A stretch of 32,229 bases of DNA. Origin: a virus. Within the stretch, counting starts at the first letter, position 1; each line of letters begins with the position of its first letter. Of this stretch, positions 8,294-30,665 are shown piece after piece. The stretch lies in the IMG/VR virus record IMGVR_UViG_3300020185_000163, positions 1-32,229 of that record, one strand, 5' to 3'. The notes beneath the pieces are model-generated. The model was not told the DNA's origin. It ran no database searches and was given only the letters and a program-made list of their open reading frames with translations. The position numbers were made by a program, and so were the translations under genes.

Positions 8294-8344
8294 ATTTAGT
8301 TTTCCCTCTTTATAAAACGGTATTAATTGATGTTTCAATCATAC

Positions 8345-12018: not shown

Positions 12019-13809
12019 CTAAGCGCCGGACTCACCAAGAAGTCCTCGGACAACCACTAGACCATACATATCAGGACGAACCATCTGCTTGGCATAGCGA
12101 GTCATCACGCCCTTGCGGGGCACGAAGTCCTCTGGACCGAAGATGGTAGGTGTTGTCTGTAGTGGGACATAAGGGGCGTATACGTATCCGCTCTCTAGGA
12201 AAGAGGAGCCGCGACGACCAACGAGAACCACGTTGCGTAGGAAGTAAGGGTCAACAATGACATCAAACTTCTTGCTCAAAGAGCCTACAGCAACAGCACC
12301 GATGGAACCAGTCTCAGAGTCAGCTGTGACGCTGGCACGGAATCCGGAGGTGAACTCAAGGATGTTTGCAACTTCAGGTCCTACGACGACGAAGTTAGCA
12401 CCACCACGAAGAGTCTTACGGTGAATGGCAGCAGAGACATCATTAATTGTCTCAGCTAGAGTCTCATACCACTCGGACACAGTACCGGTGAAATCAGGAG
12501 CCTTAGCGCTAGCACCAACCTCGTTACCGTTGACATCTAGGAAGAGACCAGGGGCACGGGACCAGTAGCGGGTAGCTGCGGTTGCGCCGTTAACGAGGTC
12601 GGCAAGGATCTCGCGGTCAATCTCTAGAGCAATCTGCTCGGAGAGGATGCTGGTAAGCTCAACCTCTGCATCCATGTTGTGGTATGCGTTGAGGTCCTGA
12701 CCAAGCTCTGGACTCCACTTAGCCTTGAGCTTCTTGGTCTGAGCGGTGACAGCGATGGAATCCACCTTAATGTCAATCTCAGGAATCTCAGAAGAACCCT
12801 CTAGTCCCCAAGTGGTGGTACCAACGACAGAGCCGAGAGCGCCGCCACCAGTTAGACCATCAACCTGTGGGTAGGAGGCGCTGAGGTTACCGACAGTAGT
12901 AAAGGCACCATCGGGAATGTTGATGCCTGTCGCACCTGAAAGGGCGGAGAAATACAGAGCCAAGTTACCAGAGGAATCCTCGCGCTGTAGGCGACGAACC
13001 TGCTGCAGAGTAGTGGCATTTAGACCAGAACCAGTGATTGCGACGACTGCGGCTGCTAGAGCCTGTACTGCGGCAAAGTTGTCCTTGTCTAGATCGCTAG
13101 GAACGTCTGCAGATGCAACAATAACCTCTAGAACCTTGTGGGTAGCACCAGCGCCAGTAGCTAATGCTAGAAGGTCTGGATCCCACTGGATCTTCTTAAG
13201 GTTAGCATTTGTCATATCCGCTCCAGCGGCACCAGACAAATCGATAACAGTCGCGGTTAGGTTGCCAGTAGCAGCGACAAAGGAGCCACTTGGGGATCCA
13301 TATGCGTAACCACGAGCAGAGGTGCGAGGACCAGAAAGGTCGCCACCAGAAGAACCAACGATGTTAACACCGCCAGTGACCTGGGAACCAACACGGTCTG
13401 TACCGTAGATGGAAGAACCAGTGGTGTTACCCATTCTGCTAGCATCTGCTGTGCCAGTACCGATATCTCCCGAGAATGTGAAATCAAGGAAGAAGATGAG
13501 ACCCGATGGGAGGCTCATTGGCTGAACGGAAACGAGATCGTTTGCGATCAACCCTGCGAAGACACGACGTACAATCGGGAATGCGACGGCTGCGAAGCCC
13601 TCAACATCACCAGCCTGCATTGTTGTGCTCTCACGAAGAAGCTCTTTAGCTTGGTTCTCTAGGAGACGTGCCATTGAGTTCTTCTTACGATCATTTTCAA
13701 GTCCTTCTAGTAGACCTGTGCGCTCCCACTTTGCTAACAAAGCGTGACCTTCAGCGCGCATATCACGGTTAACGACACCTTCGCTTAACCTTTCAATTAT
13801 ACCAGCCAT
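12019..13809 (-). CDS. Major capsid protein (T4 gp23-like)
   Basis: The 596-residue product contains VEGFAAVAFPIVRRVFAGLI and NDLVSVQPMSLPSGLIFFLD, the signature N-terminal region of gp23-type capsid proteins, and ends with VRPDMYGLVVVRGLLG. It builds the icosahedral shell after scaffold-guided assembly. A likely prohead-protease cleavage site is LRE|S at residues 58-61, matching the T4 pattern of hydrophobic-x-Glu and close to the T4 site at residue 65; the exact bond is inferred. A strong AGGAGG ribosome binding site precedes the ATG. It directly follows the scaffold gene and is followed by a strong terminator. A 14-nt interrupted palindrome (13840-13853) overlaps the scaffold stop codon about 30 nt upstream. 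Confidence 0.96.
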   Translation of the reverse strand: MAGIIERLSEGVVNRDMRAEGHALLAKWERTGLLEGLENDRKKNSMARLLENQAKELLRESTTMQAGDVEGFAAVAFPIVRRVFAGLIANDLVSVQPMSLPSGLIFFLDFTFSGDIGTGTADASRMGNTTGSSIYGTDRVGSQVTGGVNIVGSSGGDLSGPRTSARGYAYGSPSGSFVAATGNLTATVIDLSGAAGADMTNANLKKIQWDPDLLALATGAGATHKVLEVIVASADVPSDLDKDNFAAVQALAAAVVAITGSGLNATTLQQVRRLQREDSSGNLALYFSALSGATGINIPDGAFTTVGNLSASYPQVDGLTGGGALGSVVGTTTWGLEGSSEIPEIDIKVDSIAVTAQTKKLKAKWSPELGQDLNAYHNMDAEVELTSILSEQIALEIDREILADLVNGATAATRYWSRAPGLFLDVNGNEVGASAKAPDFTGTVSEWYETLAETINDVSAAIHRKTLRGGANFVVVGPEVANILEFTSGFRASVTADSETGSIGAVAVGSLSKKFDVIVDPYFLRNVVLVGRRGSSFLESGYVYAPYVPLQTTPTIFGPEDFVPRKGVMTRYAKQMVRPDMYGLVVVRGLLGESGA

Positions 13810-13842: not shown

Positions 13843-15024
13843 TTATTTAATACCAGCTAGTCTCTTCATTCTCTCAGAAAGAGGGTCAGAGATTGTGCTC
13901 TCTTGACGAGAAGCACGAATAAAAGATGATCGCTTATTGCTGATTGCTTCGCTCAATGATTTTGGGCTTCGCTTGGGCTTAGCCTCCACTGTGCTTTGAA
14001 GGGTTTCGTAAATAACCTTTGCATCTGATACTGAACCAGCGTTAGAAATAGTTTCGGCAATCTTTTGTTTTTGCCGCTCATTTAAGGAGGGATCTCTAAG
14101 TACACGGTTCGTGTAAAGCAAGCGGGCGTTAGAAAGGTTTATATCATATAAACTTTCCTTAAGTTCGCCAATTGCATGCTCATATTTAAAAAGTTTCTCA
14201 CTGAGTTGGCTATTTTCAAAAACCAACTCTTCTTGAGCTTTCTTTAAAGTTTTTAATTCATCCTGAACATCGGTGGAGCGCCGATGGGCTAGCTCCTTCT
14301 CGATTTCATATGTGATAGATTCGGAAGAGCGTCCTGCCCAACCAGATAGGTCTGCGCCCATATCGACGGTAAGCTTCTCGACAATTGCATCAACAAGAGA
14401 GTCTGTGACTTCTTCGAGTCCTGCGTTTTTCATAGCAATCGAGTCGGCTGTTTCGGAGGCTGCTTCACCGCCGGCGGGATCTCCCTTTTCATCGTCAACT
14501 CCCGCAGTATAATCCACGTCGGCTTCCGGGTCTGGTAGTCCGGAGTCTTCTTCGTCGAGAAGAGCCTCTAGGATATCCTCAGTAATCTCTATTTCTTCGT
14601 CTTTGCGTAGAGCAGCGAAGTCATCGGCATCGATATCCCCATCATCGTCCTTGTCTAGCTCACCCTGATTACCAGATAGTTCTTCTTCTAACTCTGCCTC
14701 CAGGGAGGCTACTGCTTCTTGGAGAGCGTCAAGATCAACAGTGACCCCAACTGGTTCACCCTCTTCTGTCATATTCTCTGGCATATCTCCCTCCTCCTCT
14801 GAAAGGTTGTCGGTGGCTGCTAATGGGACACCTTCTGCGACCTCTTCTACAGATCCGGAGTCTTCTTCTAATCCCAAAGATGTGTCGTCTTGCTCAAGAA
14901 GCTTATCGAGTGTTTCTTTGACTTCTGATGCATACTTCTCGATAATTGTTGTTTCGGCGTTCTTGAGTGCCGAGTCACGTAGCGCTTTTGCGTCAACGAT
15001 AGCTTCTCTTAGCAAGCTTGACAT
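13843..15024 (-). CDS. Prohead core scaffold protein (T4 gp22-like)
   Basis: The 393-residue product starts with EAIVDAKALRDSALKNAE and a helix, followed by a very acidic central region (residues 45-200). Its C-terminal half is coiled coil with KKAQEELVFENSQLSEKLF and a NRVLRDPSLNERQKQKIAE segment. The final region is basic and ends SERMKRLAGIK. This is the architecture of gp22-type scaffolds, which fill the prohead and are then digested by the protease. It sits immediately upstream of the capsid gene. Residues 124-135 (14620-14655) form a textbook EF-hand loop, DKDDDGDIDADD, unusual for a scaffold. An AGGAG ribosome binding site precedes the ATG. Confidence 0.88.
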   Translation of the reverse strand: MSSLLREAIVDAKALRDSALKNAETTIIEKYASEVKETLDKLLEQDDTSLGLEEDSGSVEEVAEGVPLAATDNLSEEEGDMPENMTEEGEPVGVTVDLDALQEAVASLEAELEEELSGNQGELDKDDDGDIDADDFAALRKDEEIEITEDILEALLDEEDSGLPDPEADVDYTAGVDDEKGDPAGGEAASETADSIAMKNAGLEEVTDSLVDAIVEKLTVDMGADLSGWAGRSSESITYEIEKELAHRRSTDVQDELKTLKKAQEELVFENSQLSEKLFKYEHAIGELKESLYDINLSNARLLYTNRVLRDPSLNERQKQKIAETISNAGSVSDAKVIYETLQSTVEAKPKRSPKSLSEAISNKRSSFIRASRQESTISDPLSERMKRLAGIK

Positions 15025-15196: not shown

Positions 15197-16435
15197 TTAT
15201 TTTTGCCCCATAATCGCCCATCCGTTAACACCGTTGCCGGCAATTATTAGCGCGCCCCAGTCAGCCTCAATCTTTGCTTGCGCATTCCCGTCGATTGTTT
15301 CAGAGCCAGAAGCAGCAATTACTATGTTTTTTGTCGATGCCACACCCTGTATATCCTTGAAGACTAGAGTCGCTCCCTGTCCCAGTACGCTGGCTGCTGG
15401 CAAGCTAGCGGTTATGTGACTGGCGTTTCCAGAAACTACTAGATAATAAGATCCCAGCTCAACGTTAAAGTCTGCACTCTTCACCTCCGTGTTGTGTCTT
15501 ACGGTGCCCTGCATGATCGTTGTGTTTGAGACTGTGACATCCCCAGCACCGTTGATCTGAAATATCGGATTCTTTGTGTCTGACTTGGTTGAAAATATTA
15601 TCCCAGAGTCCGAGCCACTTAGATCGAGTACCGCGTCAGGAACTAACGTATTAATTCCGACCCTCTTCGCGGAAGAAGAGACAAATAGGGTACTGTCTGC
15701 AACAGATCTATTATTGTCATCGCCAACAAAAAGACGCCCTTTATCTAAATTTGGTGTTGCATTTGTGCGACCAGCTCCACCAACTTTGATCTGATTATCT
15801 CCGCCGACGCCGTTTCGAACAACTGATCCGATATTTTGCAATAAATTACCCTGCCCAGCTGGAGCAGTGTTAGTCAGACTGCCAGACGTGCCACCAGAAC
15901 CAGTTTGAACGAATAAAGTGGATCCTTGAGTAAATGTCTCACCTGGAAATAGAGTGCCTAAGTTAAGATTCCCTACCGAGCCGAAGGTTACAATTTGAAC
16001 GCTTGCATTTTGCGCAACGGTTGAGTCCGCAATGCCAAAAGCTGGCATTTTGCTTGGGTCATCTGCAGCTGCGAGTGCCACCGTCGGGGTCTGACCCTGG
16101 ACGCCGTTAATATAGACAACTTGACCTCTTGTAATAGTCGCGCCCTCATCGTTTACTGCATCAAACCGAACAGAGCCTTCTAGATCACCAATCACCTCTT
16201 CTACGTGCAGTCGGCTCCATTGCAGGTCTGTTGAGCCGAGATCGCTGGTTAGCGTAATACTTGGCACAATATTAACTGACGATGTAATCGCCGAACCAGA
16301 AACAATAAACCTTTGCTGTCCATTTGTTTTTATCGCAACAAAATCGTTCTCAAAATCGATTTGGGTGTCCAACGGATCTGATTCAAACTTAATGTCTCCG
16401 TGTTGTTGTGGACCTTTCGAGCTATTGTAAGCCAT
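15197..16435 (-). CDS. Fibre-like virion protein A (paralogous cluster)
   Basis: The 412-residue product begins MAYNSSKGPQQHGDIKFESD. Residues about 100-250 hold a module with RGQVVYINGVQGQTPTVALA and MPAFGIAD, common in phage fibre proteins. A region with VGINTLVPDAVLDLSG follows, resembling tail-fibre repeats. The C-terminal 85 residues carry a beta module: YYLVVSGNA, SLPAASVLGQGATLVFKD, ASGSETIDG and GWAIMG. It is likely a fibre or decoration on the virion surface, but the attachment site and ligand cannot be told from sequence. It begins 26 bp after gene B, with a TGGAGA ribosome binding site. Confidence 0.7.
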   Translation of the reverse strand: MAYNSSKGPQQHGDIKFESDPLDTQIDFENDFVAIKTNGQQRFIVSGSAITSSVNIVPSITLTSDLGSTDLQWSRLHVEEVIGDLEGSVRFDAVNDEGATITRGQVVYINGVQGQTPTVALAAADDPSKMPAFGIADSTVAQNASVQIVTFGSVGNLNLGTLFPGETFTQGSTLFVQTGSGGTSGSLTNTAPAGQGNLLQNIGSVVRNGVGGDNQIKVGGAGRTNATPNLDKGRLFVGDDNNRSVADSTLFVSSSAKRVGINTLVPDAVLDLSGSDSGIIFSTKSDTKNPIFQINGAGDVTVSNTTIMQGTVRHNTEVKSADFNVELGSYYLVVSGNASHITASLPAASVLGQGATLVFKDIQGVASTKNIVIAASGSETIDGNAQAKIEADWGALIIAGNGVNGWAIMGQK

Positions 16436-16461
16436 TGTTAATATTCTCCATTATTGTTTTC

Positions 16462-17592
16462 TCAAGTACCTCTTCCACCAATAAGCCACCAGCGATCGCC
16501 ATCGGACTGAAACGTTCTTGTTGAATAGTTCATCTTAATTATGCAAGTGTCTGATAAATCGATTGGTCCCTCTTCACAAGAAACTTCGACCACACTGGAT
16601 GTGATCTTATATTTATCTGAATTGGTTTTTTTAATTATTAGTATTCTTCCGTGATTGTTGTTGGCTGGCGGGAGTTTAACTTTCACTTTGTTCTTCAAAG
16701 TATCACACAAGACAGTATAATCTTCTTTCTGTATTTCGTATACTGGCGTATCGGTCTTTTTGATGTTGTGGTACACAGAACCCTCACAAACAAACTTGCT
16801 ATCTATTTTTAGACTGTCTGTCTGAATCTTACCATCGACCTTCAGTAAATTTGCTGCGGAGTCATACGTAAGTTTAGCCGACGATTCAAATTCACGTGCG
16901 CCCTTTAGCTGTAGTTGTCCCTTGGAGCCGGCTGCGTGAGGTACCTTCGTATTAATATAGCTATCATACAAGTTTCTCAGAGTGGTGCTGTTTGTGGAGC
17001 CTCGGGAAACATCCCCCACAATTAGCAAGTCGTTGTCTGAGAGATTTTGACCTTGTGAGTTTATTTTCTCTGCTTTCGCCGGATCTATACAGAGCTTGTG
17101 GTTCTTGATTGACAGTGCTGAAGTTGTCGATATGTTTAATTCTATTCCTTCAGTGTCGTCACATCTGAGACCGTGACCGGTCTTAACTTGTAGGCTGCCC
17201 CTTACGTTGATCAAGCCAGGACCGCTTCTTATAAAGCGCGCAGGAATTGTGCCAATAAACTTATCTGCCGGCAGATCTGATAGTTGGGTAGCTGAGCCCT
17301 CGTACAAGTCTGCTGCAATTTTCTTTACTTTAAGTTTGTCCCCGTCATAAGTTAAGTCGTGATACGAGCGAGCGCCGGTCTCACGATCACACACTAAAAG
17401 ACTGTTTTGTGAGCCACCTTTGATATTTGTGATCGCAACATCTTTCATCGTCGCACACGGGCTTTGCGCATCAGTGTCATAAAACACACTAGCGCTAATA
17501 GTATTTTTAAATACTTTGACTCCCCCGATCTCCTGATCGCCATACTGATCAACAGATCCTTCTACGATACCTTTTAATACATTATAAGCCAT
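16462..17592 (-). CDS. Fibre-like virion protein B (paralogous cluster)
   Basis: The 376-residue product begins MAYNVLKGIVEGSVDQYGD, sharing the MAYN..KG start with genes A and D. Its middle has KGQLQLKGAREFESSAKLTY, the module also present in genes D and E. The C-terminal part, with VKVKLPPANNNHGRILIIKK and DRWWLIGG, is a diverged copy of the shared C-terminal beta module. It is richer in Lys and Asp than the other members. A terminator lies upstream and recurring motifs precede its AGAGGA ribosome binding site, so it may lead a separate transcript with gene A. Confidence 0.68.
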   Translation of the reverse strand: MAYNVLKGIVEGSVDQYGDQEIGGVKVFKNTISASVFYDTDAQSPCATMKDVAITNIKGGSQNSLLVCDRETGARSYHDLTYDGDKLKVKKIAADLYEGSATQLSDLPADKFIGTIPARFIRSGPGLINVRGSLQVKTGHGLRCDDTEGIELNISTTSALSIKNHKLCIDPAKAEKINSQGQNLSDNDLLIVGDVSRGSTNSTTLRNLYDSYINTKVPHAAGSKGQLQLKGAREFESSAKLTYDSAANLLKVDGKIQTDSLKIDSKFVCEGSVYHNIKKTDTPVYEIQKEDYTVLCDTLKNKVKVKLPPANNNHGRILIIKKTNSDKYKITSSVVEVSCEEGPIDLSDTCIIKMNYSTRTFQSDGDRWWLIGGRGT

Positions 17593-17608
17593 TATATTCC
17601 TCTACTCT

Positions 17609-17620
17609 CATAAATAGATC
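17609..17620 (-). promoter_or_regulatory. CTAYTTAW motif upstream of fibre gene B
   Basis: Sense GATCTATTTATG lies 18 nt before the ATG. A second related site, sense GCTACTTATAG (17639-17649), lies between it and the terminator. Confidence 0.35.
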
Positions 17621-17653
17621 TTTGTTTTCTTTATCTCCCTATAAGTAGCAAGC

Positions 17654-17687
17654 AAAAAAAAGGATGCCCCTCTTGCGAGGGGCACCC
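17654..17687 (-). terminator. Strong rho-independent terminator after fibre gene C
   Basis: The GC-rich stem GGTGCCCCTC/GAGGGGCATCC has one bulged base and a GCAA tetraloop on the sense strand, followed by eight T residues. It separates gene C from genes B and A. Confidence 0.9.
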
Positions 17688-17725
17688 AGTATTATTAGAT
17701 TGTCCTAGTCGGAACAAAGTTTAGA

Positions 17726-19690
17726 CTAGAAGAGTCTCCAGAGATCACTACCAGCATCAATGCAAACCATAGAAACGGCGGCAAATGGCGACTCAAGAAC
17801 GATAGCGGTCTCGCCATCGACTGTTGCGCCCTGGATTGTAATGGTTAGGGTGGAACTGCAGTTAGCAGGAGCCTTAACCTGAACGATGTCACCAGCTTCG
17901 CCTGGAGCAGGCATTGTCAAAACGCGAGCAGCAGTCAAGTTAGCGGTACCGTAGTTGAAGCCCTCTACGAGGTTGGCATCTGCGTCGGCGTATGCAACTG
18001 GTGCAGTCGCGGAATCAACAGAAAGCTGTCCACTAGCAGATAGACTGAGACCAGCGCCAGCAACAGACGACTTGAGCTTGAGACCACCAGCGTCAACCTC
18101 AAAGGAGGTGGAACCAGAAAGCAACATTGCAGCCTGGAACGCGCCGGTAGCAGAATCATAGCTCATATCGATACTGTTTGTATCGACAACGCTGAAGTGA
18201 GCGCGTGTCTCAGCAGCAGATGGACCGGTGTATGTGAACACGCCGGAACCACTGTTGTAAGCGAAGGAACCGTCACCACCAGCATCTGTAGCAGACACCG
18301 AAGCGCGAGAACGCACGTCTGTGTAGTAAAGGTTTGTCTCTTCAGGAAGGTCAGCTGTGCTGACCTGACCTGCGCCAGTTCCAAAATCAATGTGAGAATC
18401 CTTGACACCATCAGCTTTCAGCTGTAGTGTATCAACGTTGATCTCGATACCAGAATCATCGACGAGAACTGCTAGAACCTCGGAAGTGAATCCGATACCA
18501 GCACCAGCGACGGAAGAGTCCAATCTCATTACTCCGCCATCATCAGCTAGAGCAGTGCCACGCTGTAATTTATCAGCAGGGATACTGCCAGAAAGCATAG
18601 CGGCTGTGATACCAAGAGCCTTGACGCGAAGTGAATCAGCGTTTGTCTCGATAGAAGAATCATCGACGTTGACAGCTAGAACTTCAGAAGAGAAGCCAAG
18701 TCCATCGCCAGCGACGGAAGAATCTAATCTCATTACGCCAGCATCATCAGCTAGGGCTGTACCACGACGTAGCTTGTCAGCAACAATGTTGCCAGAAAGC
18801 ATAGAGTTTGTGATACCAAGAGCCTTGACTCGAAGTGCATCAGAATCTGTCTCGATAGAAGAGTCGTCAACGTTGACAGCTAGGACTTCAGAAGAGAAGC
18901 CAATGCCATCACCAGCGACGGAAGCGTCTAGTCTCATCACGCCAGCGTCGTCAGCTAGGGCTGTTCCGCGCTGCAGCTTGTCGGCAGCAATGTTGCCAGA
19001 AAGCATGATGTTTGTGATCTTGCTGTTGCCGATGGAAATAACGCCAGCGTTCAAGGTAGCGTCACCGCTCATTAAAACGTATGCTAGGTCAGTTCCGTCA
19101 GACTGTAAGAACTGGTGGGCGGGGCCCACAGATAGGGCAGCTGGGTCACCAGAAGCATCACCGTGAAGGATAGAACCGCGAGCGATTCCAGCCATCTTAG
19201 CGAGAGTAACACCATTGTCTTTGAGACGTAGTGCATCAGCGTTGATCTCAATTCCGCTGTCATCGACGTTGACAGAAGCAATGCCGGAAGACCAGCCGAG
19301 ACCATCACCAGCGATAGAGGAAGAAACAGCAACCGTGACGGCGGCGCTGTTGTTGAAGCTAAAGGCAGCGATACCTTCGCCCTGAGATACTGCGAACTCT
19401 GTTAGTCCCTTAGCGACACCACTAAAAGCGATATCACCAGTGACGCCCATTTCGCTGCCGTCGAATGTGAAGTTAGCGGAATCCTCAAGCTCACCAGAAG
19501 TGCCAACAAGTGTGACGCGACCAGCTGTGAGATCAGAAACAGCTAGGGAAGTTAGGGAACCGACGCGGGAAGCGTCGATTGCGGTGGCACCAGCCATCTT
19601 GAGTGCGCCGGATTCGGTGATGTCTACATCACCCTCCTGCTCTAATGCACCACTTAAGACTGCTTGACCAAATTGAAATTTATAAGCCAT
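17726..19690 (-). CDS. Fibre-like virion protein C with tandem repeats
   Basis: The 654-residue product begins MAYKFQFGQAVLSGALEQEG. It contains three tandem 68-residue repeats at residues 225-292, 293-360 and 361-428, with cores LSGNI..DKL.RGTALADD and SSEVLAVNVDDSSIE. Half-copies flank them (SSIAGDGLGWSSG before, SSVAGAGLSLSASG after). The C-terminus has a diverged form of the shared module (VLTMPAPGEAGDIVQVKAP, then ETAIVLESPFAAVSM) and ends SDLWRLF. The low-complexity Ala, Ser, Asp and Gly composition fits an elongated fibre shaft. The start has a GGAGGG ribosome binding site. It is the largest member of the cluster. Confidence 0.72.
   Translation of the reverse strand: MAYKFQFGQAVLSGALEQEGDVDITESGALKMAGATAIDASRVGSLTSLAVSDLTAGRVTLVGTSGELEDSANFTFDGSEMGVTGDIAFSGVAKGLTEFAVSQGEGIAAFSFNNSAAVTVAVSSSIAGDGLGWSSGIASVNVDDSGIEINADALRLKDNGVTLAKMAGIARGSILHGDASGDPAALSVGPAHQFLQSDGTDLAYVLMSGDATLNAGVISIGNSKITNIMLSGNIAADKLQRGTALADDAGVMRLDASVAGDGIGFSSEVLAVNVDDSSIETDSDALRVKALGITNSMLSGNIVADKLRRGTALADDAGVMRLDSSVAGDGLGFSSEVLAVNVDDSSIETNADSLRVKALGITAAMLSGSIPADKLQRGTALADDGGVMRLDSSVAGAGIGFTSEVLAVLVDDSGIEINVDTLQLKADGVKDSHIDFGTGAGQVSTADLPEETNLYYTDVRSRASVSATDAGGDGSFAYNSGSGVFTYTGPSAAETRAHFSVVDTNSIDMSYDSATGAFQAAMLLSGSTSFEVDAGGLKLKSSVAGAGLSLSASGQLSVDSATAPVAYADADANLVEGFNYGTANLTAARVLTMPAPGEAGDIVQVKAPANCSSTLTITIQGATVDGETAIVLESPFAAVSMVCIDAGSDLWRLF
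18407..19018 (-). repeat. Three tandem 204-bp repeats in fibre gene C
   Basis: In-frame units occupy 18815-19018, 18611-18814 and 18407-18610. All are exactly 204 bp. Differences fall mostly at third codon positions, so the array is maintained at protein level and may change copy number by recombination. Confidence 0.85.
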
Positions 19691-19814
19691 GTTTAAAAAC
19701 CCTCCATGTTATAGTTTTTGAATAGCATTGAGCAGACGCACCTATCCAAACATAATCTAGATAAAAAAGTACCGACTGCTCGACTATAACTAGAGCTTTC
19801 GATTTATAAGATTC

Positions 19815-20681
19815 TTAGCAGATATAATATTTGTCGAGCCCGTTACAATAAAGGTGGATCGATGCATAAGGTGACTCTAAAATAACTGAATTTTGACTAT
19901 CGATTGTTTGCGATCCTGAAGCTATAATTGTCACATTGTTCGTGTGTGCGGATCCGCCCTCGTCCTTGATAACATAAGTCTGACCATCTTGCAAAGCTCC
20001 CGCATTTGGCAAGCTGATACTAACCGGAGAGGCGGCTGTATTAACCCCAATATAGTAATCAGAAGTCGAGGCTGTCAACGAAGCAGATGTATGTATTCTG
20101 TTCAGCTTTAAGCCGCCATTAACCTGTAGGACGTTGGAGGAAAACACCAGTTCAGAAGAACCACTGAACTCTCCCGATCCGGCTTGATACTGTAACGATC
20201 CTACTGGACCAACTGCTGCGGAGCCACTACCAGCAGAGTTGCTTAAGTTTATCCAATATCCATCAGAGTTCTTGTATTGTATTGTGCCGGCATTATCTCG
20301 AATACCATACCCTAGACTCCCAACAGTCCCTCCCCAATTCAAGTAAGCAGAAGAAGCAGATAGGTGTATCCCTCCGCTCACTACCACATCTGAGCCGAAT
20401 TGAGCGCCAGTAGTGGCAACCAAGTCTCCTGTTATGTTTAACTGGCTCCCATCAAAAGTAAGATTACTTTCACAAGTTAGTGTGTTGGCATCTCCACCTA
20501 CATTGATAACTAAAGCGTTATCTGTGGCATTCGATAAGCGCGGTATATTTAGGATCTCTGCGCCGTCGGACGTACTCAAGTTACCAGATACTATTGGAAC
20601 TATTATCTGACCATTCCGGTCCTGCCTAGGCACCAGAGCATTCGGCTGCATGACTGTTCCAGACAGATTATTATATGCCAC
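19815..20681 (-). CDS. Fibre-like virion protein D (paralogous cluster)
   Basis: The 288-residue product starts at a GTG at 20681, preceded by AGGAG eleven bases upstream, and reads MAYNNLSGTVMQPNALVPR. Its middle has GPVGSLQYQAGSGEFSGSSE. Its end has the shared C-terminal module: SISLPNAGALQDGQTYVIKD, ASGSQTIDS and ILESPYASIHLYCNG. Both modules are closely matched in gene E. It is probably a trimeric or oligomeric surface fibre or decoration protein; this is inference. The 124-bp gap after it (19691-19814) shows only weak inverted repeats, with no clear terminator. Confidence 0.7.
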   Translation of the reverse strand: MAYNNLSGTVMQPNALVPRQDRNGQIIVPIVSGNLSTSDGAEILNIPRLSNATDNALVINVGGDANTLTCESNLTFDGSQLNITGDLVATTGAQFGSDVVVSGGIHLSASSAYLNWGGTVGSLGYGIRDNAGTIQYKNSDGYWINLSNSAGSGSAAVGPVGSLQYQAGSGEFSGSSELVFSSNVLQVNGGLKLNRIHTSASLTASTSDYYIGVNTAASPVSISLPNAGALQDGQTYVIKDEGGSAHTNNVTIIASGSQTIDSQNSVILESPYASIHLYCNGLDKYYIC

Positions 20682-20705
20682 GTGCTTCGTGTCTCCTTTT
20701 ATTAA

Positions 20706-21386
20706 CTAGAAGACAAACCAGTTTGCGCCGTTAGAATATAAGCTAATGGCTGGCATAGTACCGGTGAGCACATAAGATGTTGAGCCATCGATCGTGTACC
20801 CTGAAGAGGCAGTCAATATGATGTTTGCTCCTCCTCTTACTGCTACCTCGTCCTTCACTAGCAATATAGATCCAGAATTATATAATGATGCGCTTGGGAT
20901 TAGGATCTGTACGTTGGCTGCATTCTGTACTCCCAATATATATGTTGGGGCGCTAGCAGTATAAGCAGTCACTGTCACAGCTTTATATAGAACGTTAAGC
21001 CCTTGAACTGTTGTTGCTTGTGTCGCGGTGCTTACACTGAATAACGGAGAAGATGCCCCAGATAAAGAAATCGACATACTTCCTGTTCTAGTGTGTACGT
21101 CGTCATTAGTGTTTCCAAAGCGAGTAGATCCGCTAGCGTCGATCTCTGTAACGTCTTTAATGTGGTAGTGGCTTGCGCTAATCGTCCCTGTTACTACCAA
21201 TGTCCCAGAAAGAACAATTGTGCTCGGCTCATAGCTGCCAAAAGAAGCAGTATAATATATTAAGTTATTGGAGCCGCTAGTGGAGTTGGCTCCTGTCAAA
21301 AACTGTAAAGATCCGGTGGGTCCGGCAGCTTGACCGCCACCGCCACCAGAACCAGTACAGTCTACATAAGCCCATCCAAAAGCCAT
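20706..21386 (-). CDS. Fibre-like virion protein E (paralogous cluster)
   Basis: The 226-residue product has a short N-terminus (MAFGWAYVDCTG), a six-residue Gly/Ser linker and a GPTGSLQFLTG module. A beta-rich shaft with SGTLVVTGTISASHYHIKD follows. The shared C-terminal module is ILIPSASLYNSGSILLVKDE, TASSGYTIDG and ISLYSNGANWFVF. It is the smallest complete member of the module family and keeps the C-terminal module best. It starts three bases after gene F ends, so the two are probably co-translated. Confidence 0.68.
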   Translation of the reverse strand: MAFGWAYVDCTGSGGGGGQAAGPTGSLQFLTGANSTSGSNNLIYYTASFGSYEPSTIVLSGTLVVTGTISASHYHIKDVTEIDASGSTRFGNTNDDVHTRTGSMSISLSGASSPLFSVSTATQATTVQGLNVLYKAVTVTAYTASAPTYILGVQNAANVQILIPSASLYNSGSILLVKDEVAVRGGANIILTASSGYTIDGSTSYVLTGTMPAISLYSNGANWFVF

Positions 21387-21389
21387 TGT

Positions 21390-21788
21390 CTATCCAACCC
21401 CTACAGACCCTGACCACGAAGTGCCAGAATCAGTGTTTACTCTCTGTGGCAGTATCGACGTTAGTCCAGCCACAACGCTTGTGCTAGCGCCGCCGCCCCG
21501 TAGGTGAATTTCAGATACTTTGATCTCTATTCTTCCGGTTGAACCACTAACTGGAACTTCAAAATAGTTTGTAGCAGTTAGTCCGAGATCGGAGAAACCC
21601 ACTTTTAAGATTGCAGGTCCCATATTAATAACTTCGAACCACCTTGAAACATAAGGAAACTCAATCTTTACGTTTGCTGATGTGGCATCGATAGAGCCGC
21701 TGGCGAATGGGGTGCCACTTGTCTGGTATGCCGGAACGTGGTTCAGTCCCACGTGAGATTCTTGAGATCTGATAAAACTGCTGGCCAT
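21390..21788 (-). CDS. Small virion protein F, beta-sandwich-like
   Basis: The 132-residue product reads MASSFIRSQESHVGLNHVPA and includes KIEFPYVSRWFEVIN, LKVGFSDLGL and YFEVPVSGSTGRIEIKVSEI. Small proteins of this type are common next to fibre-like genes in marine myoviruses, to my knowledge without assigned function. The strand-rich composition suggests a small beta-sandwich on the virion. A TTGGAGC ribosome binding site precedes the ATG, and it leads the fibre cluster directly after the bS21 gene. It lacks the shared C-terminal module of genes A-E. Confidence 0.6.
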   Translation of the reverse strand: MASSFIRSQESHVGLNHVPAYQTSGTPFASGSIDATSANVKIEFPYVSRWFEVINMGPAILKVGFSDLGLTATNYFEVPVSGSTGRIEIKVSEIHLRGGGASTSVVAGLTSILPQRVNTDSGTSWSGSVGVG

Positions 21789-21817: not shown

Positions 21818-21829
21818 TTATAAATAGTC
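21818..21829 (-). promoter_or_regulatory. CTAYTTAW motif upstream of the fibre cluster
   Basis: Sense GACTATTTATAA lies about 31 nt before gene F, in the 39-bp gap after the bS21 stop. On the plus strand it reads TATAAATAG, matching the T4 late promoter core, but no gene lies in that direction. Confidence 0.4.
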
Positions 21830-22064
21830 ATTTATTATTTCTATTCCGTCTTTCTTTCGCTCGGGCATTCTTTTGCTCTTCACGTGATCGCTCACGTGCA
21901 GCACGAATCCTCTTTTGACGTTTGCTGACAGAGGGCTTTTTGTAGTACTTTCTATCTACACACTCTTCAACGATTCCCTCGCTCTTTGTCTTTCTAATAA
22001 ACTTTCTTACCATCTTGTCAACGTTTCCACGACATTCTTTGGCAGTTACTACAAAATTAGCCAT
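21828..22064 (-). CDS. rpsU: Phage-encoded ribosomal protein bS21
   Basis: The 78-residue product has the complete bS21 layout. A short beta strand and VTAKECRGNVDKMVRKFIRK lead into a helix. KSEGIVEE and the diagnostic RKYYKKPSVSKRQKR follow, with a long Arg/Lys-rich tail. Bacterial bS21 sits on the 30S platform near the anti-Shine-Dalgarno sequence and affects initiation. Phage homologues are known from marine and metagenomic phages and are thought to enter host ribosomes. Start ATG has AAAGGA upstream, formed by the last codons of the preceding gene, which ends one base before it. Its place inside the virion operon implies expression with late genes. The C-terminal extension past the usual end is somewhat longer and Asn/Arg-rich. 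Confidence 0.9.
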   Translation of the reverse strand: MANFVVTAKECRGNVDKMVRKFIRKTKSEGIVEECVDRKYYKKPSVSKRQKRIRAARERSREEQKNARAKERRNRNNK

Positions 22065-22065
22065 T

Positions 22066-22518
22066 CTATTTCATTCCTTTCCATATTTTGGTTGCGCCGC
22101 CCATTAGCGAACTAATATCCACGCCGGCATCGGCAGGACTCCCTAAGTCAACAGAACCGGGCTGGGCGGCAGGTCTTTCTTGCGCAGAAAGCGGTTCTGT
22201 ATTTTCAAATAAATTGACTCCATTGTAAGCATTTGCTCCAATAGCGTCCATCATCTTTGCTCTCTGTTCTTTCATCTTTTTCTTGCGCTTCTCGTTCTGG
22301 GCATCAAGTGAAGCCTGTTGAGACTGGCTAGCTCTGCGATCAGTTTGCTGAACAGCAGGGATGCTGTGGGCAGGGGCAGCTTCAACCATAAGGCTTCCTT
22401 GCAGTCCTTTCGCTACTTCCGATACAACGTTCGATAGCAAGCCCTCTTCTAATAGTACTTCGTGAATGCACTCTTTTACGAGGGGCTTGATTAGTTTCTT
22501 CAAATCTGACTTGTTCAT
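22066..22518 (-). CDS. Conserved head-region protein, unknown function
   Basis: The 150-residue product has an amphipathic N-terminal helix (LKKLIKPLVKECIHEVLLEE) followed by a Gln/Ala/Ser-rich segment. A basic helix, EKRKKKMKEQRAKMMDAIG, and a flexible C-terminus come next. No enzyme motif is visible. It lies between the 219-residue protein and bS21, two genes after the prohead protease, so a prohead-core or virion role is possible but only positional. The start has no clear ribosome binding site and lies two bases after the preceding stop, so re-initiation is likely. Confidence 0.7.
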   Translation of the reverse strand: MNKSDLKKLIKPLVKECIHEVLLEEGLLSNVVSEVAKGLQGSLMVEAAPAHSIPAVQQTDRRASQSQQASLDAQNEKRKKKMKEQRAKMMDAIGANAYNGVNLFENTEPLSAQERPAAQPGSVDLGSPADAGVDISSLMGGATKIWKGMK

Positions 22519-22520
22519 AG

Positions 22521-23180
22521 TTATTCTGTGGCTGGGGGTTTTCTTTGGATATAATGCACAATTATGGAAGAGATCTTTATGATTTCGGGGTGTTTATTCG
22601 GCATCGACCGAATAATTCGTATAGCGCCGTGATCATCAGGCAGCTTCTTTAATGCGGCGGAAACATCTCTCTCTCGGCTTCGCAATAAATCGGTATCCGC
22701 TAGTTTGTCAATCTTGCTCGCTTTGTTATCTCCTGCACTCTCCGCTATCTCTGTATATAAATATTTACTTTTAAATGGTCCGATAACTTGCATAAAAGCA
22801 TATAAGTCTTCTTCGAAATTGGCTCTTCCATCATATTTTTTTTTGTGTACTTTCTCTAGCCTTTTGTATTCCTCTCTGTTTTTGACCTTCTGCAGATGAT
22901 CTCCAAAGTAGTCGTAAACGTATTCCGGCTTTGGTGCTGCAGCAACAGGGACAGGCTCGGGCTCTGCTGTCGCACCTGCTGTCGCAGGGACCTCTTTTTT
23001 CGTCTTAACATTTCCCCGCCCTAATCCCGATAGTGGTGAGGGTGTGCCTTGCCCCTTGGCTGCGGCGGCTATACTTTTAGCAGTGTTGATTATATCAGAA
23101 ACATACTCGTTCAAGATTCCTGTATCTGTGGCTTTTGTTTCTTCAATAAAGCTTAGCCATTTTCTCTCATACTCAGTCAT
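22521..23180 (-). CDS. Conserved head-region protein, unknown function
   Basis: The 219-residue product begins MTEYERKWLSFIEET. It has an Ala/Pro-rich linker (about residues 60-85), then a compact C-terminal domain with YVYDYFGDHLQKVKNREEYK and FEEDLYAFMQVIG, and ends with a helix containing IIKISSIIVHYIQRK. The start overlaps the protease stop by 8 bp, so it is probably translationally coupled to it. Coupling to the protease suggests a prohead component, though no family is recognised. Confidence 0.7.
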   Translation of the reverse strand: MTEYERKWLSFIEETKATDTGILNEYVSDIINTAKSIAAAAKGQGTPSPLSGLGRGNVKTKKEVPATAGATAEPEPVPVAAAPKPEYVYDYFGDHLQKVKNREEYKRLEKVHKKKYDGRANFEEDLYAFMQVIGPFKSKYLYTEIAESAGDNKASKIDKLADTDLLRSRERDVSAALKKLPDDHGAIRIIRSMPNKHPEIIKISSIIVHYIQRKPPATE

Positions 23181-23775
23181 CTTCTAACACTTCGTTTAGC
23201 AGTCGGTTGATCCTATCTGCCTTTGTGAATAGTTTGCCTTGGAGTTCTACCGACTCCTTCATCATAAATGCTCCGGGGGTCGAAGGCTCCGAAACCATAT
23301 CAAAGCAAATCAGTTGAAAGTCATCCTCAACGATTGTCTCTCCCCCGACACTCTCTCTAACTGAACCCATACCTCTCGAAGAGATACCAACGCTCACCCC
23401 ACCGCGCACCAACTCTTGGAGTACTTGTCCAGCACTCGTATTGAGCACTTTAATTTTACCCATCACATCTTTGCCTTCCATCCAAATTTCAGTTACCATG
23501 TGAGAAACTGAAGCAAGGTTGACGACGTTAGACTCTGGATGATCTAGTTCGCCTATTGCTCTGCTTTCTTTTACTAGCTTGGAATAGTTCTTCACTTCTC
23601 TGCGAAGAACGTGCTCGGGATAAATACGGTTATTGCCGTTACGAGTGTCAGCCTTCTGCATAATGCCTGTTAAGTAAATGCCGCCTTCCGCTACGTGTCT
23701 TTTCTCTTCCTCGGTCAGAAGATCTTGGCAGACTCCGCCTTCACACAATTGGTAAAATTCTCGTAGTAGTTTCAT
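23173..23775 (-). CDS. Prohead core protease (T4 gp21-like, serine protease)
   Basis: The 200-residue product carries the gp21-type catalytic motifs. His79 lies in IGELDHPES and the nucleophile Ser is in VGISSRGMGS (Ser132 or Ser133). The upstream GIMQKADTRNGNNRIYP segment is also typical. The enzyme is made in the prohead core, cleaves scaffold and capsid proteins at hydrophobic-x-Glu sites during maturation, and then destroys itself. The length matches the family (T4 gp21 is 212). The ATG overlaps the TGA of a possible mini-ORF (ATGA), and a hairpin lies about 20 nt upstream. Only a weak GGAAA precedes the ATG, so the mini-ORF may control its translation. Confidence 0.93.
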   Translation of the reverse strand: MKLLREFYQLCEGGVCQDLLTEEEKRHVAEGGIYLTGIMQKADTRNGNNRIYPEHVLRREVKNYSKLVKESRAIGELDHPESNVVNLASVSHMVTEIWMEGKDVMGKIKVLNTSAGQVLQELVRGGVSVGISSRGMGSVRESVGGETIVEDDFQLICFDMVSEPSTPGAFMMKESVELQGKLFTKADRINRLLNEVLEDD

Positions 23776-26198: not shown

Positions 26199-28199
26199 TT
26201 ATTCCTTTGGCTTTTCGTTACTCTCAAGTCCCGCCAGTAGCTTCCTGACAGAATCGTTGAGTTCGAACAGTTTATTTTCCTCAGCATCCTCTCTTAAAGT
26301 ATAACTAGGTAGTTGTTGCTCATAAATACCTTTTGCGATAGAAGAGCCGACCTTCAAAGAGTTGATTTCTGCGCCTGGAAAGACATTCCGAGTTGTATTG
26401 CTGCTCTTCTCAGTCTTGCTTTTGGCTGCATAAGATCTTGTTCTCGGACCTGTGTCCTTGCGTCGGTCATTATCCACAGGCTTGTAGCTGCTCTTCTCGT
26501 AAGTTCGAACATCTTTGCGAGAACCGGGAGGAACTGCCAATAGAGGAGACTCATCGCCTGCTGGCTCATCAGTCGGCTCGGCTCCGCCTGCCTCTCCACC
26601 GGCGTCACTAGCCGGCATCTCTTCGGGTCCGCCAAGATCTCCCCCAAGGTCAAGGTCATCACCCAATCCCAGATCATCGCCTAGACCGCCACCTAGATCG
26701 CCGCCTAACCCGCCACCACCGCCGGCGACTGCAGCTTCTGCCACAGCTTGCAGCTTAGCATCGTGTGTACGATCGTAATACATCTCTTTTTGGTTCCTGG
26801 CAAATTCTTCGTGAGACATACCAAAAATATGTTCCGACACCCAACGACGAGAGAAGAAGCCTTCTGTTGCAGAACCAGCAATATCGAACTTAGCTTTCCA
26901 GTGCTCCACCTCTTGCAACTCAGCAATCTTGGAGGGATTGTTTAAAGATAACTTAAAGCTCAAGAGATCATCGCCGCGAAACCCAAGAGTGTAAAGGTGG
27001 ATAATCCCTATCTTTTCAAGCTCTGCTACGATTACTCGCTGCAATCTTTGAATCGTTCTTGCGAATCTAATGTCTTTTTGTGCAAGTGTTGTCTTGTCTT
27101 CCGATGCTCCGTCACCCATTGCCAAGTATGCCTGGGGAATTTTTAACGCGGAAAAAAGCTTATCTCTGAGGTATTTGATATCATCAATTGCTGTAATGTT
27201 TGTGCCGCCGGCAAGATTGGTTATCTCTGTGGCGGATCCTGCTCGGACTGGAATGAAATAATCTTCTTCGATAGACATCGGGTTGTATCGCAAGTCTACG
27301 CGACCGGTCTTTGAGTCAACTACAGAGTGACGCTTAAGTTGCGTAACGATCTTTTCCATAAACTGCTCCACCTCATTGGGAGGAACTGCTCCGACATCAA
27401 TCTTAAACACACGGCGCTCAGATGAGCGTACAACACGATAAGCCATCATCGCATCCTCCATAAGAGTAAGTTGTCTCCAGATACGTCGTGCTGGCTCAAG
27501 AATCGAAGTTCCGTAAGGTGCGTACTTATCATTTCCAAGCACGCGGAAGTGGGCAATCTGCCAATTCTCGAAGGTCATTCCTGCAGAGTTCCACTGGTAT
27601 TGGACGTAGTTCGCGTTAGTTGCGTCTTGACCTTCGAGTCGCTCGACCTCTTGGACGGGCATTGCAATAACTGATTTCACTCCAAAATTATCATCGATGT
27701 CTAAATACAAAAAGAAATCCCCGTACTTGCACATTGTGCGTGCCCAGCCAAAAAGATTATATTGAAGGTTTAGGGTGTTGTCGTACAGAGAGCCAAGGAC
27801 CGCTTTGATCTCTTCATTCGAGCACTTGATATTCAGCATAGGCTTTAGATCAGAATACGTAGTCATTTCATCGGCGTAGATATCCATAGTGGATGCGATC
27901 TCTGGAGTATACTCCATTTGATCGAAGTCAATGTATCTCTCTGATCGGCGCTGGTTTCCGATCGCGTTTGTAGCAATGTGGTCTAGCGGGTTATAGAAAG
28001 TCTTCTTAAACTGCTGACCGGAAGCTGATTTAAACCTAGCAGCATACTTGTCTAAGTGCTGTCGACGGATGCGGCGGCCTGACTGAGAACGATAGTTTAC
28101 AATCGGTCCAGAGAATAACCTTGTCAGCCTCTTAAAGAGTTCTGACTGCTCATTGGCAGGGTTCTTGCCTTTGTTAATATTTCTGTTTCTCGGTGCCAT
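26199..28199 (-). CDS. Portal protein (T4 gp20-like)
   Basis: The 666-residue product includes FKKTFYNPLDHIATNAIG, YIDFDQMEYTPEIASTMDIY, and the stem/clip region with MEDAMMAYRVVRSSERRVF and KIPQAYLAMGDGASEDKTT. This is the gp20 pattern. Twelve copies form the vertex ring through which DNA is packaged. The C-terminal part is unusual. Residues 493-525 (26625-26723) are a Gly/Asp/Leu low-complexity run (GGDLGGGLGDDLGLGDD), followed by an acidic stretch and a basic tail (residues 560-605). It lies eight bases after terminase, the usual order. The ribosome binding site is weak (GTGAGAAA). Confidence 0.95.
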   Translation of the reverse strand: MAPRNRNINKGKNPANEQSELFKRLTRLFSGPIVNYRSQSGRRIRRQHLDKYAARFKSASGQQFKKTFYNPLDHIATNAIGNQRRSERYIDFDQMEYTPEIASTMDIYADEMTTYSDLKPMLNIKCSNEEIKAVLGSLYDNTLNLQYNLFGWARTMCKYGDFFLYLDIDDNFGVKSVIAMPVQEVERLEGQDATNANYVQYQWNSAGMTFENWQIAHFRVLGNDKYAPYGTSILEPARRIWRQLTLMEDAMMAYRVVRSSERRVFKIDVGAVPPNEVEQFMEKIVTQLKRHSVVDSKTGRVDLRYNPMSIEEDYFIPVRAGSATEITNLAGGTNITAIDDIKYLRDKLFSALKIPQAYLAMGDGASEDKTTLAQKDIRFARTIQRLQRVIVAELEKIGIIHLYTLGFRGDDLLSFKLSLNNPSKIAELQEVEHWKAKFDIAGSATEGFFSRRWVSEHIFGMSHEEFARNQKEMYYDRTHDAKLQAVAEAAVAGGGGGLGGDLGGGLGDDLGLGDDLDLGGDLGGPEEMPASDAGGEAGGAEPTDEPAGDESPLLAVPPGSRKDVRTYEKSSYKPVDNDRRKDTGPRTRSYAAKSKTEKSSNTTRNVFPGAEINSLKVGSSIAKGIYEQQLPSYTLREDAEENKLFELNDSVRKLLAGLESNEKPKE

Positions 28200-28207
28200 T
28201 TAATTTC

Positions 28208-29791
28208 TCACTTTATGATCCACTTGTATTGACTATACAAGTCTTCAGCTTCACTCATCTTACCAAATAAGTTGTCACTTTTGTAGCCTTGTTGTCCTCT
28301 AATCTGAGTGTTCATAGTTGTTTTTGTGCTGATTATTGATTTAACAAATGCTTTTTGATAGTTAAGATCTCTCGCTGAAGATTGCAAGGCAGTGTCTCTT
28401 ACCCAGCAGGCTATTGCTAACGCCATAACTAGATCGTCGTGGTATCCTCTCATCGCCTGCGGTTTGCCGTTTTTCCAAACAAATGTCTTCATCTCTCCGA
28501 TTGTGCGCGAGGAGTATATGGTAATTAGTTTGTTTCTAATAAACTCTTCTAACTTCGCTACAATAAGAGGTCTCGTCTTCATCGATGTTGTAAATCCCGC
28601 GACAGCAGAATTTCCTACTTCTGCCTGATGCTGCTCTACATACTCATGTGTAGACTTTATGGAATAGTATAGATTTGGATACCCATATCCAATAAGTTTA
28701 TCTAAGACGGTATAACCTATATTATTATTCTCCACTACGAGCATTGCATTTCCGAACTCTCTCCCCACTTGGTTCAAGAAATTTGCATACATATCTGGTG
28801 TTGGTTTACCTTGGTATTCGCCCACCACTTCTAGAGTTTCTAGTTTTAGAATGTGTAGCGTGGAATAGTCCGCTCCATCGCCGCGTGAAACATCTGCAAC
28901 AGCAAGATAGTTGTGAGCAGGATCATAGTCTTCCCAGATCCAAAGGTTTCGATCAAATCCGGTTCTATATTTCGGTTCTTTCGTTTTCTGTAGTAACCAA
29001 GTCATACTGTCCGAACCTATAACTGTTTCGCCGGAAGTATTGAAGTTGCACTCCAGCTCTTGCGCAATCTGGCGCTTGGACATATTTTTGGTTTCTTTCT
29101 TGAACCATTCTTCATCTCGCTCTGGGTGTACGTCCCACATAAGAGTTGTCAGGTTGAAGTTATTTTCGCCACTCTCGGCACCGACACAGGTCTTATGGAA
29201 CCAGTTGCCAACACCGTTAGGGGTCGATAGTGCAATGCAGCGCCCACCAGTCGACAGTGTTGGGTATAGCCCGGTCCAAAGATCCTCTAGTCCCTCAATG
29301 TGTGCTGCCTCGTCTAGAACCAAAAGGGACAAAGCCTCGGAGCGACCAGCGTCTCCAGAAGTGGACGCTGCCTTGATCGAAGATCCGTTGGATAGAATAA
29401 AAGAGGTTCTGTTATCTATATCGATACTTGCAATACGAATCCAGTCTGGAAGATTCTTCATAATCTTCTTAACCTTGTTGACCAAGTTTCCAGCAGTCGC
29501 AAACTTGGTAGCCATAACAAGTACAGCTTTATCGCGATGAAAAAGCATCATCCATACAATATAACCCGCAGTTAAGGTAGATATCCCAAGCTGGCGACCT
29601 TTGTTGATTACATTAAATCGATAATCGTTAAAATCTCCCAGTAGGAGATCTTGATAATCAAAAGTATTGAAGAGGATTAGACCGTCGATTGGGTGAGAAA
29701 TTCTAGCGTAACTCTTTAAAAAGTAGGCTGGGTTCTTTCCGCACTTAAGTATTTCTCTTACTTGCTCTTTTTTGCTTAACTGAAACGCCAT
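28208..29791 (-). CDS. Terminase large subunit (T4 gp17-like)
   Basis: The 527-residue product has the packaging ATPase in its N-terminal half. The Walker A-type motif is GRQLGIST (residues 65-72), Walker B is LLVLDEAAH (Asp160, Glu161) and the coupling motif is STPNG (189-193). The C-terminal nuclease has AVADVSRGDGADYS (Asp300), VVENNNIG (Glu354) and GYHDDLVMALAIA (Asp452/453), the RuvC-like acidic residues. It cuts concatemeric DNA and pumps it into the prohead through the portal. The Walker A lacks the canonical Lys found in T4 (SRQLGKTT), a variation I recall in related marine phages. Its ATG overlaps the previous stop (TGATG), implying coupling. No small subunit is recognised. Confidence 0.96.
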   Translation of the reverse strand: MAFQLSKKEQVREILKCGKNPAYFLKSYARISHPIDGLILFNTFDYQDLLLGDFNDYRFNVINKGRQLGISTLTAGYIVWMMLFHRDKAVLVMATKFATAGNLVNKVKKIMKNLPDWIRIASIDIDNRTSFILSNGSSIKAASTSGDAGRSEALSLLVLDEAAHIEGLEDLWTGLYPTLSTGGRCIALSTPNGVGNWFHKTCVGAESGENNFNLTTLMWDVHPERDEEWFKKETKNMSKRQIAQELECNFNTSGETVIGSDSMTWLLQKTKEPKYRTGFDRNLWIWEDYDPAHNYLAVADVSRGDGADYSTLHILKLETLEVVGEYQGKPTPDMYANFLNQVGREFGNAMLVVENNNIGYTVLDKLIGYGYPNLYYSIKSTHEYVEQHQAEVGNSAVAGFTTSMKTRPLIVAKLEEFIRNKLITIYSSRTIGEMKTFVWKNGKPQAMRGYHDDLVMALAIACWVRDTALQSSARDLNYQKAFVKSIISTKTTMNTQIRGQQGYKSDNLFGKMSEAEDLYSQYKWIIK

Positions 29792-30347: not shown

Positions 30348-30665
30348 TTATTGGTTTCCTTTCATTTTGAGTAACTTTAATACTAAGGTGTTGATTGCGG
30401 TACCCCTGTTTCCAAAGATTGATTCAAGCACATTCTTTCTAACTTGGGCTGTTACATTTGGAGTAAGGAGGATTTGGGCTAGCATTTTCTTGTACTCTTC
30501 CTCTCCGAGCTTGCCTCCTTGGGTTGTGCTGGTGGTTACCTTTTTTGTTCTTTGTGTCTCTTCGCCATCAGAGGCATCGGCTGTGGGAAGTTCGCCGGCT
30601 AATTCGCTGATTTTATCAAACTCTTCCTTGATGAGCCGCTTTATCTGTGATTTAGTGATTTTCAT
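30348..30665 (-). CDS. Small conserved ORF, unknown function
   Basis: The 105-residue product starts MKITKSQIKRLIKEEFDKIS, a basic amphipathic helix. It has a Thr/Ser-rich linker (residues 38-50), then a helical C-terminal domain with EEYKKMLAQILLTPNVTAQV. The ATG overlaps the preceding gene by 14 bp and has a GGATGGAGA site upstream. N-terminal helices of the KxxIKxLIxEE type recur in the 150-residue head-region protein, so the two might share a binding partner. That is inference only. Confidence 0.65.
   Translation of the reverse strand: MKITKSQIKRLIKEEFDKISELAGELPTADASDGEETQRTKKVTTSTTQGGKLGEEEYKKMLAQILLTPNVTAQVRKNVLESIFGNRGTAINTLVLKLLKMKGNQ

Follow-up and report, generated by a model that had tools for sequence, protein, structure and literature searches.

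A phage-type bS21 gene coupled to a partner gene in the head-gene cassette of a T4-like virus group

Results

bS21 lies among the head genes of a T4-like genome fragment

The window analysed here is a 32,229-base fragment, an IMG/VR virus record. Its main genes are all encoded on the minus strand, and they are arranged as in a T4-like head and tail module: terminase, portal, unknowns, prohead protease, an unknown, up1, bS21, dn1, fibre-like genes, a probable scaffold, the major capsid protein and the tail genes (Table 1). An initial annotation had placed a bS21 gene between a head-region unknown and the fibre cluster, inside the late structural operon, and both statements hold. The portal, the protease and the head unknowns are found upstream of bS21, and the fibre-like genes, the probable scaffold and the capsid gene downstream, while bS21 itself is on the same strand as the structural genes and directly coupled to the gene that precedes it. 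The window bS21 is located within about ten genes of terL, the portal, protease or capsid gene, like the structural-cassette phage bS21 genes of Chen 2022 (PMC9723584).

Table 1 Positions of bS21, its neighbours and the head genes in the window
Feature	Position	Strand	Description
Large terminase, gp17-like	28208..29791	minus	PF03237, E 9.4e-9; PHROG 2, E 4.6e-51
Portal protein, gp20-like	26199..28199	minus	PF07230, E 1.3e-77
Prohead core protease, gp21-like, Peptidase_S77	23173..23775	minus	PF03420, E 2e-32; PHROG 207, E 8.6e-52
Gene between protease and up1	22521..23180	minus	No Pfam or PHROG match
up1, 150 aa	22066..22518	minus	bS21 ATG begins 1 nt past its stop codon; N-terminal helix, then LLEEG as candidate prohead-protease site
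Ribosome-binding site of bS21, AAAGGA	22075..22080	minus	Inside the end of up1; duplex energy -5.6 kcal/mol
Phage bS21, 78 aa	21828..22064	minus	Conserved rRNA-binding core, three-residue insert K9-E10-C11, longer basic tail
dn1, downstream of bS21	21390..21788	minus	Directly adjoins bS21 in 49/81 loci
Probable scaffold, gp22-like by position	13843..15024	minus	No PHROG match; just before the capsid gene; several [LI]xE[AGS] motifs; presumptive assignment
Major capsid protein, gp23-like	12019..13809	minus	PHROG 138, E 4.9e-71

Between bS21 and the probable scaffold, positions 15197-21386 hold a run of fibre-like genes that start with MAYN, MAYK or MAFG and have similar-looking C-terminal ends. 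A strong terminator-like hairpin is located between two fibre-like genes, on the minus strand at 17662-17687 (11 pairs, 8 of them GC, followed by 8 T), and it is possible that the bS21-containing transcript ends there. The T4 late promoter TATAAATA matched the window twice, both times on the opposite strand and at chance level, and a promoter scan also gave matches at chance level only. Searches of the window for Rfam families and for tRNAs found none.

The gene encodes a genuine bS21

The bS21 ORF is complete and starts with ATG. Its product scored above the cut-offs of both Pfam Ribosomal_S21 (PF01165; E 5.3e-9, 36.1 bits, cut-off 27) and NCBIfam TIGR00030 (E 1.1e-9, 37.9 bits, cut-off 28.95), and it matched PHROG 21469, 'ribosomal protein S21'. 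When the PDB was searched with a profile of the bS21 relatives, the 36 distinct sequences retrieved were all bS21 or bS21m, including plastid and mitochondrial proteins (best E 3e-8). The AlphaFold model of the window protein is helical (pLDDT 91.7), and a fold search with this model gave five PDB matches, weak ones (E >0.4), all of them ribosome entries at S21-type chains.

The protein contains the motif KYYKKPS, in which K43, P44 and S45 vary little or not at all among 57 distinct family members, and F22, P44, S45 and R57 are present without exception across these phage proteins. The residues shared by phage and bacterial bS21 are V6, R20, F22, R36, R38, Y41, K43, P44, R49 and A55. The core features of bS21, namely RRF, Y/F-x-KP-S/T and a basic second helix, are all found in the window protein. 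Judged by these sequence matches, the ORF encodes a genuine, full-length bS21 with the KYYKKPS signature, as the initial annotation had claimed.

Phage bS21 proteins form a separate clade

The phage bS21 family was compared with 67 bacterial bS21 proteins, whose rRNA-binding core it retains. The three-residue insert of the phage proteins is missing from all 67, and the phage tail is longer than the bacterial one and basic. In E. coli numbering, the phage proteins have I for K at position 20, K for E at 24, and E at 30; at position 27, most phage relatives have R or K for G, and the window protein keeps G. Divergence in the same stretch of bS21 has been described in other phages, as Arg21, Phe23, Asp25 and Thr28 (Chen 2022, PMC9723584).

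A tree of bS21 proteins had been suggested as a means of finding the host. No host could be read from the tree built here, of 91 rows and 74 columns, in which the phage proteins form their own clade, distinct from both the Bacteroidota set (100/100) and the E. coli-like Pseudomonadota set. The bS21 of Pelagibacter phage HTVC008M joined a second Pseudomonadota set, which also holds the Maricaulis MAG's own bS21. With only 74 columns and several long branches, the tree gave no firm deeper placement or sister group for the phage clade.

The nearest matches among genome_contigs were in MAGs of Flavobacteriaceae (L163), Acidiferrobacteraceae (L164) and Maricaulis (L166). They were rejected as host evidence because these are phage contigs binned into MAGs: the same loci carry the protease, up1 and other phage genes, and the MAGs have their own, different bS21. 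The many matches in Omnitrophota are probably a product of the search pattern and were likewise not taken to indicate a host. The psbA gene, a cyanophage sign, was absent from eight long relatives, which is not decisive.

Shine-Dalgarno use and the residue at position 54 together point away from a Flavobacteriia-type host

Anti-Shine-Dalgarno pairing at -4.5 kcal/mol or better was found at 25 of the 33 window starts (76%), a conservative count because a few start codons are uncertain, e.g., the tail-sheath start at 8338. Of 191 internal ATGs, 19% reached the same threshold (p about 1e-9), as did 25% of shuffles, upholding the earlier remark that the phage genes carry strong sites. In Flavobacterium bS21, Tyr54 blocks the anti-Shine-Dalgarno, according to PMC9723584, which cites the F. 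johnsoniae ribosome. Clades a-e of Chen 2022 keep an aromatic residue at this position, whereas all 56 of the phage bS21 proteins that reach it here have Arg. Most other sampled Bacteroidota also have Arg there, and the residue alone is therefore not diagnostic. Taken with the Shine-Dalgarno use, it speaks for a host with Shine-Dalgarno pairing and against one of the Flavobacteriia type. The group is also set apart from the Bacteroidetes phages described in Chen 2022, in which bS21 retains the residue that prevents such pairing.

bS21 is present at one site in all testable relatives

Viral-contig scans with the protease and capsid proteins provided 160 loci, and six-frame searches gave 80 bS21 sequences, counting those of the window itself and of a copy of the window's record. 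bS21 was on the same strand as the structural genes in 71/71 testable loci (the window and 70 prohead-protease relatives with enough downstream DNA), whereas in clades a-e of Chen 2022 it is on the opposite strand, a criterion that marks those clades and not all phage bS21. The distance from the protease to bS21 in the 71 full-protease loci ranges from 313 to 3090 nt downstream. The 17 protease loci that lack bS21 are all truncated no more than 1.7 kb from the protease, and absence was seen in none of the loci with at least 4.5 kb downstream of a full protease. The dN/dS of the closest bS21 pairs was about 0.05-0.15, with a median of 0.26 over 47 pairs. The same-strand conservation and the purifying selection exclude a chance occurrence of bS21.

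Seven of the eight long relatives have exactly one bS21 copy; the eighth, L086, ends before the bS21 region, as indicated by the 4.8 kb that this contig contains upstream of the capsid gene. A cultured-phage search with the window bS21 as the direct query gave no match. One relative (L054:8952-9362) encodes a bS21 of 119 aa, in which EAKDRRYYKKPSVRKREEQAKAERRRRRDELKKQRAE is duplicated in tandem.

up1 is the constant upstream partner of bS21

In 79/79 readable loci, the gene immediately before bS21 belongs to the up1 family. The spacing of the two, counted from the stop of up1 to the start codon of bS21, falls between -4 and 16 nt for 55 of 56 genes. The pairing was examined both ways by independent scans, which favour the loci most like the window and leave the most distant relatives outside the sample: bS21 adjoined up1 in 77/77 loci with room when the scan was anchored on up1, and up1 was just upstream in 79 of 80 loci when it was anchored on bS21. 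In most rows scored as 'not adjacent', both genes are present and their stop-to-stop frames overlap; L314, L349 and L352 are truncated. The exception in the bS21-anchored scan, L437 (2288-2977), is the sole locus seen with the two genes apart, about 690 nt lying between them.

The up1 family is well conserved (62% mean column identity), has no match in Pfam or PHROGs, and yielded a structure model of low confidence. The N-terminal helix of up1 ends in [LI]EEG in 30 of 34 distinct members. The T4 prohead protease cuts after E in (L/I)xE(A/G), and motifs of this type are present in the window's up1, protease, probable scaffold and capsid protein. The window bS21 has none, and any such motif was found in only 2 of the 57 bS21 family members. 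up1 is possibly a prohead-core protein, and it may be cleaved by the prohead protease or packaged. Elsewhere in the window, a small protein at 30348-30665 has the N-terminus MKITKSQIKRLIKEEF, which resembles the N-terminal helix of up1 and that of an L164 protein (1442-1936); this is possibly a shared targeting signal.

Discussion

A proposed role for the phage bS21

The identity of bS21, its conservation, its position and its coupling to up1 are established at the level of sequence. Building on these, we consider it moderately probable that the gene supplies a phage-adapted bS21, which is made late from the head-gene polycistronic message, enters ribosomes and adjusts initiation for the phage. 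From the gene order, bS21 would be transcribed with the head operon, late. Host bS21 binds loosely to the platform of the 30S subunit, next to the 16S 3' end. The phage protein could exchange with it there, as suggested by bS21 biology and by the recovery of another phage's bS21 in E. coli ribosomes (Mizuno 2019, PMC6375957). The altered first helix and loop, the N-terminal insert and the longer basic tail might then change initiation, which is the least certain step, and this change would either favour the Shine-Dalgarno-led late phage mRNAs or bypass a host translation shut-down. In other phages, bS21 is highly transcribed with the structural genes (PMC9723584). In the literature, we found no study showing that any phage bS21 gives phage messages an advantage.

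In-vitro translation was cut to about 5% with the HTVC008M bS21 in E. coli ribosomes (PMC6375957), and the effect of a phage bS21 could therefore be inhibition and not preference. The least unlikely alternative takes up this result and holds that bS21 poisons or remodels host ribosomes, leading to late host translation shut-off rather than a preference for phage messages. The helix-1 residues, strongly altered relative to bacteria, are consistent with such a role. However, the phage needs the genes around bS21 to be translated, and the drop seen with E. coli ribosomes may stem from a host mismatch, as the authors of that study pointed out.

Next in standing, and likewise unlikely, is the possibility that bS21 is a head-internal protein, small, basic and nucleic-acid-binding, which is packaged together with the DNA, perhaps via up1, and injected to act on ribosomes early. 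The location of bS21 in the prohead-core cassette near the protease, the constant company of up1 and the net charge of about +17 are consistent with this, the [LI]EEG after the up1 helix fits a T4-type cleavage site, and encapsidation was also proposed by Chen 2022 (PMC9723584). On the other hand, such a basic charge is normal for bS21 (+14 in E. coli), bS21 has no N-terminal helix comparable to that of up1, and the model of up1 is of low confidence. Moreover, 55 of the 57 bS21 proteins lack a prohead-protease motif, which weakens the case for packaging.

It is doubtful that bS21 has its role away from the ribosome, for instance in head assembly, where it could bind RNA as a partner of up1. 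The invariant pairing with up1 would suit this, and an extra-ribosomal bS21 partner is reported for a bacterium (PMC12054373), but the ribosome-contacting core is conserved, and the bS21 genes of HTVC008M and Microcystis phage Mel-JY01 have no detectable up1 nearby. We give still less credence to a two-gene module in which protease-cut up1 carries bS21 into the head; if it did exist, ribosomes would be reset once the DNA enters the next cell. Finally, although single host-origin genes are common in phages, the chance retention of a recently acquired host gene with no phage role is hardly credible for a gene that is present in all testable relatives at one site, under purifying selection and as a phage-specific subfamily.

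Comparison with known phage bS21 genes

The idea itself is already published: phage copies of bS21, their structural location, their late expression and the virion hypothesis were described in PMC9723584, and ribosome entry in PMC6375957. In the Bacteroidetes phages of Chen 2022 (PMC9723584), bS21 is beside the terminase, portal, protease and capsid genes and is transcribed late, and preferential translation was proposed alongside encapsidation. The window group resembles these phages in having bS21 near the terminase, portal, prohead protease and capsid genes, and theirs also has a conserved hypothetical neighbour. In contrast to them, bS21 is here coupled to up1 in a phage that uses Shine-Dalgarno sites. 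The group thus differs from the Chen clades in strand, bS21 subfamily and partner gene, and still belongs to that known kind. The new finding is that bS21 occupies one and the same place, beside one and the same partner, in nearly all of the relatives studied. Across a large T4-like group comprising hundreds of metagenomic contigs, bS21 appears to be as fixed in the head cassette as the protease, and the naming of up1 as its invariant coupled partner makes the function of phage bS21 testable with two small genes.

Among cultured phages, Flavobacterium phage immuto (MW353176) has the closest TerL (46%) and protease (44.5%) and a similar head-gene order, but neither bS21 nor up1 was detected in the 14.5-kb head region read. 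Mel-JY01 (PP395634), also cultured, carries terL, the protease, a small gene, RpsU and the capsid gene on one strand, and its TerL is 43% identical; its bS21 is, however, very divergent, and the gene upstream of it is not detectably related to up1. Like the window, HTVC008M encodes a phage bS21, one that has been shown to enter E. coli ribosomes (PMC6375957), but its gene is located near DNA-replication genes and not in a head cassette.
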